Positions 57,549 to 61,463 of a DNA stretch of 64,000 nucleotides are shown piece after piece. This DNA is from Marinobacter guineae (GTDB taxonomy: Bacteria > Pseudomonadota > Gammaproteobacteria > Pseudomonadales > Oleiphilaceae): positions 1-64,000 of the forward strand of contig NZ_KZ319343.1 in NCBI RefSeq assembly GCF_002744735.1, written 5' to 3'. A model generated the notes under the pieces. The model ran no database searches. It saw nothing but the letters and a program-made list of their open reading frames with translations, and was not told the origin of the DNA. A program made the position numbers and the translations under genes. How positions within the stretch are numbered: position 1 is the stretch's first letter; every line of letters begins with the position of its first letter.

Positions 57549-58952
57549 TTAGCAGGAGTAGTACAGCTGGAACTCAACCGGATGAGTGGTCATGTTCAGT
57601 TTCTCAACTTCACCGCGCTTCAGGTCAATGTAGCCGGCAATCATGTCTTCAGTGAACACGCCGCCGCGGGTCAGGAACTCGTGGTCGTCCGCCAGGCAGT
57701 CCAGAGCTTCAGACAGGGTTTCGGCAACCTTCGGAATGTTCAGGGCCTCTTCCTTCGGAAGATCGTACAGATCCTTGTCCATGGCGTCGCCAGGGTGGAT
57801 CTTGTTCTGGATACCGTCCAGGCCGGCCATCATCAGGGCAGCGAAAGCCAGGTACGGGTTGGCCGCCGGATCAGGGAAGCGAACTTCAATACGACGCGCT
57901 TTCGGGCTGTTCACGTAAGGAATACGGATGGAGGCCGAACGGTTACGGGCGGAGTAGGCCAGCATAACCGGTGCTTCGTAGCCCGGAACCAGACGCTTGT
58001 AGCTGTTGGTTGCCGGGTTGGTGAAGGCGTTGATGGCCTTGGCGTGCTTGATAACGCCGCCAACGTAGTACAGGGCCGCTTCGCTCAGGCCGGCATAGCT
58101 GTCGCCTGCAAACAGGTTCTTGCCGTCTTTGCTCAGGGACATGTGTACGTGCATGCCGGAACCGTTATCACCCACAACCGGCTTGGGCATGAAGGTGGCT
58201 GTTTTGCCGTAGGCGTGAGCCACGTTGTGTACGCAGTACTTCAGGATCTGAACTTCGTCAGCCTTGCGGGTCAGGGTGTTGGCGCCAACGCCGATTTCAC
58301 ACTGGCCAGCGGTGCCCACTTCGTGGTGATGAACTTCGATTTCCAGACCCATGGATTCCATGGCCGCACACATGGCGCCACGCAGGTCGTGCAGACTGTC
58401 CACCGGCGGAACCGGGAAATAGCCGCCTTTCACACCCGGGCGGTGGCCGATGTTGTTGCGGTCGAAGTCTTCGCCGGATACCCAGGCGGCCTCTTCCGAA
58501 TGGATGTGGTACGAAGAACCTTGCATGTCTACGTTCCATTTAACGGAATCAAAGACAAAGAACTCCGGCTCCGGGCCGAACAGGGCGCCATCGGCGATGC
58601 CGGTGGACTTGAGGTATTCCTCGGCACGACGGGCAACGGAACGCGGATCGCGCTCATAGCCCTGCATGGTTGTGGGCTCTACAATGTTGCAGGTGATGTT
58701 AACGGTGGTTTCTTCAGTGAACGGATCGAGTACTGAGGTCTCGTCGTCCGGCATCAGGATCATGTCGGATTCGTTGATGCCTTTCCAGCCGGCAATGGAA
58801 GAGCCGTCAAACATTTTGCCGTCCGCGAAAAAATCTTCATCTACTTCGGTGGCTGGCAGCGTCACGTGCTGCTCTTTACCGCGGCTATCAGTAAAGCGCA
58901 GGTCAACCCATTTGACTTCGTGTTCTTTGATCAAATCAACTGTCTTGGACAT
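57549..58952 (-). CDS. glnA: Glutamine synthetase, type I (adenylylated form)
   Basis: GlnA makes glutamine from glutamate, ammonia and ATP as a dodecamer. The 467 residues start [20 protein letters not shown]. Metal and substrate motifs include [41 protein letters not shown] and [20 protein letters not shown]. The adenylylation tyrosine is Tyr396 in KDLYDLP, so GlnE control is expected. It diverges from typA; sigma54 promoter and NtrC sites lie upstream, and ntrBC lies downstream on the same strand. Confidence 0.98.
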
Positions 58953-59107
58953 TGTGCATGCTCCATAAGTTATACCGCAAAGGCGGCTGTATTCATGTTC
59001 GTGATGCCGGATCGCTCAGAATACTGAGTTCCGATCTGTTTCTCAGGTTTGCGCAGCTTAGCAAATGCCAGTGCGTCTTACCTGCAAATTTCGGCTGCTT
59101 TCGATAA

Positions 59108-59124
59108 AGCAAGGCGCTTGCCAA
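59108..59124 (-). promoter_or_regulatory. Predicted sigma54 promoter of glnA
   Basis: On the minus strand TTGGCAAGCGCCTTGCT (59124-59108) has GG and GC spaced by 10 nt and matches YTGGCACG-N4-TTGCW at nearly all positions. The predicted start is near 59097, about 145 nt before glnA. The NtrC boxes lie about 110-140 nt upstream of that start, the usual enhancer distance. Confidence 0.8.
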
Positions 59125-59207
59125 TTTTTAGGGCATGCTCCAGAACTGAGCAACTGCAAGGGTTTGGGGCATGTACAGGCCAAATTCGCTGTTACCGGTT
59201 CGGTTCC

Positions 59208-59237
59208 TGCACTTTATTGGTGCACTTAATTGGTGCG
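59208..59237. promoter_or_regulatory. Two overlapping NtrC boxes upstream of glnA
   Basis: TGCACTTTATTGGTGCA (59208-59224) is a full NtrC consensus (TGCAC-N7-GTGCA). TGCACTTAATTGGTGCG (59221-59237) overlaps it by four bases and is one base off. The centres are 13 nt apart, so two dimers would sit on nearby, not identical, faces. Together they form a likely enhancer for the glnA sigma54 promoter. Confidence 0.8.
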
Positions 59238-59323
59238 TTAATTGTTTGGGTGCGCTAAATGAGTGCGCGGCATCGCCCAAAGAGTAGGCGTTTTTCTTCA
59301 TATTAACGACACAGACTTTTCGC

Positions 59324-59329
59324 TATACT
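59324..59329 (+). promoter_or_regulatory. Probable -10 box of the typA promoter
   Basis: TATACT is followed by the discriminator ACGCGCCGC. No good -35 box is present: the best candidates are TATTAA (17-nt spacing) or TTAACG (15 nt). The predicted start is near 59336, leaving a leader of about 175 nt before typA. Confidence 0.45.
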
Positions 59330-59346
59330 ACGCGCCGCTTCATTTT

Positions 59347-59497
59347 CACCCTGCCATTTTGAGATTCGGGATCGAGAAGATCCATGCAGGGTGCCGGGCA
59401 ACCAGTCCCGGTGAATGAGTTCATTTTACGGATTTGAGACGGCATGTGCGGGGATTCTCCCTTCGAACGACCCTCTCAGGTCATTTAGTGCATGCCG
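59347..59497 (+). ncRNA. Multi-stem structured 5' leader of typA (candidate RNA regulator)
   Basis: Three separate stems can be drawn. I: CACCCTGC (59347-59354) with GCAGGGTG (59386-59393), enclosing GGATC/GATCC (59369-59373, 59379-59383). II: CCGGG (59394-59398) with CCCGG (59407-59411), directly adjacent. III: CGGCATG (59442-59448) with CATGCCG (59491-59497), enclosing GACC/GGTC (59469-59472, 59479-59482). Stem III ends at the edge of the AGGA ribosome binding site of typA. An autoregulatory or temperature-sensitive role is only a guess. No known riboswitch class was recognised. Confidence 0.45.
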
Positions 59498-59510
59498 CAG
59501 GATTATTTTT

Positions 59511-61322
59511 GTGATTGAAAAACTTCGTAATATCGCCATTATTGCCCACGTTGACCATGGTAAAACCACGCTGGTTGATCAGCTGTTGCGCCAGTCCGGC
59601 ACGTTGGACCGAAAAGAGCTCGAAAGCGAGCGGGTTATGGATTCCAACGACCAGGAAAAAGAGCGTGGCATTACCATTCTGGCCAAGAATACGGCCCTGA
59701 AATGGCACGACTACGACATCAACATCGTTGATACTCCGGGCCACGCTGACTTCGGTGGCGAGGTTGAGCGTGTCATGAGCATGGTCGACTGTGTATTGCT
59801 GGTGGTCGATTCCATCGACGGACCTATGCCACAAACCCGTTTTGTGACTCAAAAGGCGTTTGCCGCCGGCCTGCGCCCGATCGTGGTGGTCAACAAGATT
59901 GACCGTCCTGGTGCCCGTCCGGACTGGGTTGTGGACCAGGTGTTTGATCTGTTCGACAACCTGGGTGCGACTGATGAACAGTTGGACTTTCCTATTGTTT
60001 TCGCCAGTGCCCTGAATGGCATTGCGGGCATGGATCACGAAAAACTGGATGACAACATGGATGCCGTGTTCCAGGCGATCGTTGATCATGTGCCTGCACC
60101 GAACGTCGATATGGACGGTCCGTTCCAGATGCAGATTTCCCAGCTGGATTACAACAGTTTCCTGGGCGTGATCGGTATTGGTCGCATCGCGCGGGGCAAG
60201 ATCAAAACCAACTCGCCGGTGACCGCGGTTGGGGCCAATGGCAAGAAGCGCAATGGTCGTATCCTCAAGATCATGGGGCACTCTGGCCTACAGCGCGTTG
60301 AAGTGGATGAAGCACAGGCCGGCGATATTGTCTGCGTGAGCGGTATGGATCAGCTGTTTATCTCGGATACGCTGTGTGATCAGGCCAACGTTGAGGCCCT
60401 GCCGCCACTTACGGTGGATGAGCCGACCGTATCAATGACCTTCCAGGTAAACGATTCGCCCTTTGCCGGCCGGGAAGGCAAGTATGTCACCAGCCGGAAC
60501 ATCAAGGAGCGCCTGGAGAAGGAATTGCTGCACAACGTGGCATTGCGCGTTGAAGAAGGCGAGTCGGCAGATAAGTTCAAGGTGTCCGGTCGTGGTGAGC
60601 TGCACTTGTCGGTGCTGATTGAGAATATGCGCCGCGAGAACTTCGAGCTGGCCGTAGGTCGCCCGGAAGTTGTCATCAAGGAAGTGGATGGCGTGAAGCA
60701 GGAGCCCTACGAAAATGTCATCGTCGACATTGAAGAGCAGCATCAGGGCCCGATCATGGAGCAGATGGGTCTGCGTAAAGGTGATCTGACCAACATGGTA
60801 CCGGACGGCAAGGGGCGGATGCGCCTTGAGTACACCATTCCGGCCCGCGGCCTGATCGGTTTCCGAAATACCTTCCTGACCATGACTTCAGGCAGCGGTA
60901 TTCTGACCTCGACCTTCAGTCATTACGGCCCCGTCAAGGTTGGTGATGTGACCAGCCGCCAGAACGGTGTCATCGTCTCCATGGCGACCGGAACAGCACT
61001 GACCTATTCTCTGGAAACTCTGCAGAGCCGTGGCAAGCTGTTCCTGGACCCGGGTCAGGAAATCTACGAAGGCCAGCTTTGCGGTATCCATAGCCGTGAT
61101 AACGATCTGGTGGTTAACCCCACCAAGGGCAAGAAGCTGGACAACATGCGTGCCTCCGGCAAGGATGAAGTTATCGCGCTGGTGCCGCCCATCAAGCATA
61201 CGCTTGAGCAGGCGCTGGAGTTTATCGATGACGACGAACTGGTAGAGGTGACGCCGAAATCGATTCGCCTTCGGAAGAAGCTTTTGACCGAGAACGAGCG
61301 GAAGCGGTCGAACAAAAAGTAA
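59511..61322 (+). CDS. typA: Translational GTPase TypA/BipA
   Basis: TypA/BipA is a ribosome-binding GTPase related to EF-G, needed for growth in the cold and for ribosome assembly. From the GTG at 59511 ([20 protein letters not shown]) the product is 603 residues, the standard length, with AGGA 8 nt upstream. Motifs: AHVDHGKTT (about 12-20), [12 protein letters not shown] and [10 protein letters not shown]. An in-frame ATG at 59415 would add 32 non-family residues and is rejected. The C-terminal domain ends in [18 protein letters not shown]. Confidence 0.97.
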
Positions 61323-61338
61323 GCCATTGATTGAAACA

Positions 61339-61368
61339 GGGGCCAGAAGAACGTTTTCTTCTGACCCC
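61339..61368. repeat. GGGGCCAGA...TCTGACCCC hairpin element after typA
   Basis: The arms 61339-61351 and 61356-61368 pair over 13 positions with one C-A mismatch and a CGTT loop; the centre is GAAGAACGTTTTCTTC. It resembles the element after mshQ (54003-54029). It lies 17 nt after the typA stop and just upstream of the true terminator. Confidence 0.75.
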
Positions 61369-61380
61369 GGGCTCATCTCG

Positions 61381-61415
61381 AAAAGGGCAGATGAAATTCT
61401 CATCTGCCCTTTTTT
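61381..61415 (+). terminator. Intrinsic terminator of typA
   Basis: GGGCAGATGA (61385-61394) and TCATCTGCCC (61400-61409) form a perfect 10-bp stem with loop AATTC. Four A precede and six T follow. It is separate from the repeat hairpin 13 nt upstream. Confidence 0.93.
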
Positions 61416-61463
61416 CATTGGCGTAAGCTAAACTCCGGTTAAATCCTTACTTCGGAGCGCTTC

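Follow-up and report, generated by a model that had tools for sequence, protein, structure and literature searches.

Does the leader of typA (bipA) in Marinobacter guineae encode a regulatory RNA, and if so, of what kind? The gene lies near the end of the 64,000-nucleotide stretch of DNA analysed here (the window; contig NZ_KZ319343.1). An earlier note, made from the letters of the window, had drawn three stems in this leader and suggested an undescribed regulatory RNA, conceivably sensing temperature. All three stems are present, and the last of them, stem III (59440–59446/59491–59497), does reach the ribosome binding site as claimed, stopping one base before the SD CAGGA. That drawing overlooked the longest conserved helix, here called A, which interleaves with stem III. 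We consider it probable, on balance, that the leader is a cis-acting structured RNA whose core, an A/B pseudoknot with the hairpin P3, abuts the SD and controls typA translation, and that it was lost in some lineages. The leader and its gene are laid out as follows.

59324–59329, + strand: typA promoter, -10 box TATACT (from upstream sequences of relatives)
59339–59345, + strand: 5′ arm of P0, in the 5′ three-way junction, pairing with 59413–59419 (fold with A enforced)
59347–59393, + strand: P1, stem I of the earlier note (arms 59347–59354/59386–59393)
59369–59383, + strand: inner hairpin of P1 (arms 59369–59373/59379–59383)
59394–59411, + strand: P2, stem II of the earlier note (folding, also in relatives)
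59413–59419, + strand: 3′ arm of P0 (folds of relatives and fold with A enforced)
59431–59439, + strand: 5′ arm of helix A, GATTTGAGA (9 bp with 59474–59482)
59440–59446, + strand: 5′ arm of helix B, CGGCATG, stem III of the earlier note; extendable to 59449
59450–59462, + strand: P3, variable hairpin flanked by B and A′ (folding of 77 rows)
59474–59482, + strand: 3′ arm of helix A (A′), TCTCAGGTC (pairing in aligned leaders and an unbiased helix search)
59491–59497, + strand: 3′ arm of helix B (B′), CATGCCG, its final base directly preceding the SD by one base
59498–59502, + strand: SD CAGGA, invariant across the 77 rows of alignment A1
59511–61322, + strand: typA/bipA, GTG start at 59511–59513 (open reading frame, with an in-frame ATG listed at 59415)

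The helix order A-B-A′-B′ is interleaved, that is, a predicted pseudoknot enclosing the variable hairpin P3. In the 77 distinct rows of alignment A1 the core consists of GATTTGAGA-Y-GGCATG followed by a variable hairpin, TCTCAGGTCA, a short linker and CATGCCG-CAGGA. The GTG start and the N-terminus of typA are conserved among relatives.

Two features flank this region. On the 3′ side of typA there are inverted repeats (61330–61420), the second of which closes with T6 and looks terminator-like by eye. On the other side, the divergent glnA (window 59090–59260, − strand) has an apparent promoter, TTGGCAAGCGCCTTGCTTT, together with repeated TGGTGC words, both picked out by eye; the former resembles a sigma-54 promoter and the latter are reminiscent of NtrC sites.

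Conservation and predicted geometry of helices A and B

Alignment A1 comprises 77 distinct rows, drawn from 78 distinct cores after removal of sequence duplicates; L020, whose middle is deleted, was excluded, and the family members L134–L140 lie outside the core set. In an unbiased search for columns paired in at least 90% of the A1 rows, helices A (9 bp; columns 4–12 with 59–67) and B (7 bp; columns 14–20 with 77–83) were the two longest, and at this threshold none of 3000 column permutations of A1 contained even one helix reaching 8 bp. Paired cells amounted to 98.8% in helix A and 92.9% in helix B, the former stem III, which confirms that the structured leader described in the earlier note goes beyond chance across relatives. 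Together, A and B were paired in 96.0% of cells, against 95.5 ± 0.1 in shuffles (0/500 as high), and the value fell to 45.1% or less when partners were slid by one to three columns.

Sequence change in the arms is slight next to that at typA third codon positions. On a 49-row tree the A arms changed 0.5 times per column and the B arms 1.83 times, next to 0 for the SD, 2.83 for the linker and 6.48 for the P3 region; codon positions 1, 2 and 3 of typA gave 0.6, 0.24 and 7.79 on the same tree. Helix A holds two U-G wobbles. Helix B is degraded, with fewer than five of its six core pairs, in 11 of the 78 core sequences, and L020 has lost the 5′ arm of B along with P3 and retains both arms of A.

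A lack of covariation had been named beforehand as grounds for abandoning the idea, and here the outcome was divided. An R-scape-like test, in which substitutions were redistributed on the tree, gave no significant column pair in the core (77 rows; best E 2.4) or in the full leader (41 rows after exclusion of L025, L129 and L131; best E 0.19), and neither best pair belonged to A or B. The arms are, however, nearly invariant, which leaves such a test with low power, and other tests favour the helices. The covariation score of A and B was equalled by 10 of 500 shuffles and their number of two-sided cells by 25 of 500. Pairs changed on both sides numbered 2, against 1.7 in shuffles (280/500 as high), and further pair types were matched by 114 of 500; three of the five shuffle measures on A and B were thus barely or not beyond shuffles.

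Two-sided changes occurred in B pairs at columns 13–84 and 15–82, and helix A showed one-sided changes only. Events on the tree kept pairing in B 27 times and broke it 21 times. Among single changes in B, 25 of 46 kept pairing, compared with 15.9 ± 2.95 expected, and in L029 and L118 the pair GGCATG/CATGCC is exchanged for GACATG/CATGTC. The event test was weak for helix A (7 kept, 6 broken, 4.1 ± 1.5 expected, 0 two-sided changes). Extensions of B were also compared with those of swapped partners, using the 67 of 78 cores with at least five of six core pairs: own partners averaged 2.26 against 1.90 ± 0.11 for 5 nt (p 0.0026; 35 distinct pairs) and 1.92 against 1.67 ± 0.11 for 3 nt (p 0.029; 24 pairs), with p values that ignore relatedness.

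A and B are two interleaved helices kept across relatives, the arrangement of an H-type pseudoknot, and are predicted to form one. The 5′ arm of A runs directly into the 5′ arm of B, and with all pairs formed loop 1 would be empty. If C59440 is left unpaired, loop 1 has one base across 6–7 bp of B and loop 3 has about 7–8 bases along A, dimensions that known H-type pseudoknots tolerate. Because A and B at full length leave no base to cross B, they would either coexist slightly trimmed or represent two alternative states; a fully extended B is incompatible with a full A, which makes an alternation of states possible. The single sequence gains only a little over shuffles on folding: 12 of 200 shuffles matched it (z −1.77), and 11 of 200 when the start of the gene was added (z −1.63).

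Upstream of this core, 44 of the 78 sequences have a 5′ part of at least 100 nt between the -10 box and A, and were folded; the other 34 have 33–98 nt. The 44 rows, which are related to one another, had a mean z of −1.78, and 36 of them fold, as judged by eye, into a junction that P0 closes and that contains P1 and P2, although P0 did not form in the unconstrained fold of 59335–59540. P1 retains its form despite sequence change in many relatives, and divergent members have no room for it. The three-way junction is therefore limited to part of the group and, with only 33–98 nt available in 34 of the 78 sequences, the core is A, B and P3. Stems I and II fall outside it: the 5′ part of divergent members is too short for both. 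The word TTCATTTT is present twice, at 59339–59346 and 59420–59427, with a single complement, GAATGA (59413–59418), in between; the two copies could compete for it, one forming P0 and the other a local hairpin.

In P3 the hairpin persists while its letters differ from row to row (77 related rows; mean z −1.17, 57% below −1). A candidate SD-pairing word in P3 (CCTCC or CCTGC) was considered and dropped, being seen by eye in some A1 rows and missing from others.

Promoter, coding potential and distribution

The -10 box is followed by a G+C-rich discriminator, ACGCGCC here and GCGCGCC in most relatives; a simple promoter scan did not report the box. From -10 to GTG, the 88 of 138 loci with an A arm span 117–190 nt (one 265). 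The 50 loci without an A arm, which include genomes outside the genus, span 37–40 nt in 26 cases and 41–127 nt in 17, and in 7 the -10 box or the start was not found. A box 37–40 nt before the GTG without the element, and 117–190 nt with it, would place the element within the mRNA. To judge from these upstream sequences, a single promoter type appears to serve both kinds of locus, with the element resembling an insertion that separates the promoter from the SD. A transcription start downstream of stems I and II, the other refutation that the earlier note had foreseen, is made unlikely by the conserved -10 box upstream of the whole leader.

Core lengths fall into all three classes modulo 3 (32, 24 and 22 sequences), which indicates that the core is non-coding, and the ATG at 59415 is not in frame in all relatives. 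An N-terminal extension of TypA from this upstream ATG was rejected since the reading frame is not kept, and no conserved frame of the kind expected of a leader peptide or upstream open reading frame runs through the core. The leader has no intrinsic terminator, the sole site in 58950–59620 lying at 59109–59121, upstream of the promoter box; this rules against a transcription attenuator.

A search of the whole window against Rfam 15 returned only a tRNA at 467–539. For the leader, at E up to 5, the only hit was DUF805b, a chance match with 10.8 bits against the 35.6 required and outside the element. No family thus reached its gathering score in the leader. None of the open-access papers listed in our literature searches deals with a typA or bipA leader RNA. 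By term search, the main texts of two papers surveying novel bacterial RNAs (PMC11109978, PMC8632094) do not contain typA, bipA or Marinobacter, a Shewanella survey (PMC2659441) contains neither typA nor bipA, and the available portion of PMC8313970 has nothing on a bipA leader. The proposal of an undescribed regulatory RNA thus stands as a conserved, structured and probably cis-regulatory leader outside any Rfam family, shorn of temperature sensing (see below).

A DNA search matched 56 of 58 relatives, extending into the leader in many genomes of the same genus. Within the genus, the sample of 124 genomes gave matches in 123, G126 weakly and over a short coding stretch only. Model R1 found the core (E up to 5e-9) in 82 of the 124 Marinobacter genomes and in six genomes of the sister genus g36; the 82 is a hand count from 88 strong rows, six of them g36, and most matching genomes also trained the model and so match by construction. 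All 88 strong matches overlap or adjoin typA of the same genome (places compared by eye), and the M. guineae genome itself gave one match at E up to 0.1. No strong match was obtained in 42 of the 124 genus genomes, which marks the element as dispensable, nor in the remaining genomes of the family.

An order sample of 293 genomes yielded weak R1 matches in 38 genomes at an E cutoff of 0.1, and 32 of these genomes lie outside the family; in a class sample of 369 genomes, with the cutoff at 0.001, there were three extra-family matches. Around 26 extra-family loci (L147–L170, L226 and L227) the TypA GTPase motif was absent up to about 1.5 kb a side. At L147 the match overlaps the terminal part of a pyruvate-kinase-like gene of the opposite strand. 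We judge these 26 matches to be chance or unproven, and nothing convincing emerged from either sample. A pattern search across 84,980 species placed 45 of 46 matches directly before typA, in 43 records labelled Marinobacter, one MAG labelled Halomonas and one Oleiphilaceae; the remaining match, in Mogibacterium, has no typA start downstream.

At four loci (L017, L019, L021 and L023) the 5′ half of the core is gone and remnants of A′ and B′ are left beside the SD, apparently decay in progress. Given these remnants, absence inside the genus is read as loss. On a tree of short typA fragments, built from the 73 of 138 loci with a distinct, full-length coding fragment (L035 and L036 excluded), presence of the element changes at least seven times, by gain or loss (bootstrap 6–8), and four of these changes are forced by well-supported branches. 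The element was probably lost several times. In the assembly of genome G015, typA is matched on two separate contigs (L002 and L034), of which one carries the element and the other lacks it; the duplication may reflect contamination, for which 2% is listed, or a genuine second copy.

Candidate modes of action

Position, restriction to typA, the lack of a terminator and the lack of a kept frame all point to translational control in cis, and the leader most likely tunes the level of TypA protein. If A and B were both formed, or if a bound factor kept B in place, the 30S subunit would be unable to load or would be held unproductively, and typA translation would fall. An effector connected with ribosome assembly, be it TypA, a ribosomal protein or the ribosome, would shift this balance, and lineages that dispense with the element would lose it as a unit. 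One form of this idea is a ribosome-assembly sensor that evolved in the Marinobacter lineage and was repeatedly discarded, in which TypA, a ribosomal protein or a 50S intermediate represses typA by binding the A/B knot. In the cold BipA takes part in 50S assembly, and bipA loss is partly suppressed by extra L20, a pseudoknot binder (available portion of PMC6962249), which makes an assembly-linked effector attractive; in this full form we regard the sensor as tentative and rather unlikely.

The interleaving of A with B could itself be questioned. If only B, P3 and a local hairpin GACC/GGTC form, the structure is nested, and the complementarity of A is incidental or serves as a binding site for a protein or small RNA. 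The nested fold at 37 °C speaks for this, giving B 0.997, GACC/GGTC 0.99 and A 0.002, and preferring B with GACC/GGTC (−63.9 kcal/mol) to the fold with A enforced (−58.5 kcal/mol); the local hairpin is, moreover, paired in 86.7% of cells. However, the programs used handle nested folds only and are unable to score a pseudoknot, and conservation runs the other way. A is better kept (98.8%), GACC/GGTC pairs no better than shuffles (409/500 as high), GACC is lost in L022, L094, L104 and L110 with A whole, and both A arms persist in L020 without the 5′ arm of B and P3. The local hairpin, less conserved and showing no covariation, was rejected as an alternative to A, and a purely nested structure appears unlikely to us. 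Alternatively, the arms might be conserved as primary sequence, as a specific site for a protein or a small RNA seed. Their near invariance, down to the two U-G wobbles of A, and the absence of formal covariation are what such a site would give. Yet base composition does not account for two long complementarities, changes in B preferentially retain pairing, including the exchange in L029 and L118, and P3 keeps its hairpin while its sequence changes; we hold a sequence-specific site to be distinctly improbable.

Sensing of temperature or of a metabolite fares less well still. A temperature-sensitive leader is known from the cspA mRNA of E. coli, which lends some appeal to an RNA thermometer or cold sensor, as had been conceived for typA. 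In E. coli and Salmonella, bipA is cold-induced and required in the cold, but this induction in enterobacteria is put down to cAMP-CRP (available portion of PMC12013901). Over 4–45 °C the nested model keeps helix B 0.99–1.0 formed and each base of the SD mostly unpaired (0.53–0.99), with the SD overall slightly less open when warm; no SD-blocking helix that opens on warming was found over this range. Many close relatives, furthermore, have no element. The temperature-sensing part of the earlier proposal is therefore unsupported, and we consider it very unlikely. A metabolite riboswitch controlling translation would fit the outline, a compact and highly conserved pseudoknot next to the SD resembling that of translational riboswitches, but a metabolite sensor would be expected before further genes, whereas in the genomes searched this element precedes one gene in one lineage, and it matches no Rfam riboswitch; we give it scarcely any credence. 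A cis-acting pseudoknot controlling typA translation remains the reading that we prefer.

Comparison with ribosomal-protein leaders

Pseudoknots close to the ribosome binding site are classic switches for ribosomal proteins. The rpsO (uS15) leaders of E. coli and mycobacteria resemble the typA leader, with its predicted pseudoknot, in carrying such a knot within the 5′ UTR of a gene for translation, located at the initiation site or shortly upstream of it; the mycobacterial one is upstream of it, as here, and these pseudoknots repress translation when stabilised (available portion of PMC10931766). The uS15 determinant in rpsO leaders is a U-G/C-G motif, according to the same portion of that source. 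The gene differs, and the typA leader matches no Rfam model. In the E. coli alpha operon (uS4), as described there, a pseudoknot at the ribosome binding site acts by entrapment (PMC10931766); it comprises the ribosome binding site, whereas the predicted typA pseudoknot stops one base before the SD, and again the gene differs.

The operator of infC-rpmI-rplT (bL20) in E. coli is a pseudoknot that, like the typA one, ends a few bases before a translation start, but it spans the 3′ end of infC to rpmI. bL20 binds a pseudoknot, and multicopy suppression links it functionally to BipA (PMC6962249, available portion). In the typA leader, neither rRNA-like words nor complementarity to rRNA exceeded chance level in the readable part of the rRNA region of its own genome: the longest shared word is 9 nt, shuffles giving mostly 8–10, and 1306 of the 6401 bases of that region are N. 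Nor does the leader precede a gene for its own ribosomal protein, as an autoregulatory ribosomal-protein leader would; TypA is a ribosome-associated GTPase. Enterobacterial bipA is the same gene, but its cold induction is ascribed to cAMP-CRP (PMC12013901, available portion).

The pseudoknot predicted here precedes the gene of a ribosome-assembly GTPase and has arms conserved almost to the base. Relatives that have the promoter and lack the element are natural knock-outs, which make RNA feedback on the level of an assembly factor directly testable. If true, the assembly-sensor reading would mean that a ribosome-assembly GTPase is under autogenous control by RNA, and the open-access papers listed in our searches include no earlier example. 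By analogy, the closest working parallels to the typA leader would be the pseudoknots in the leaders of ribosomal-protein genes.
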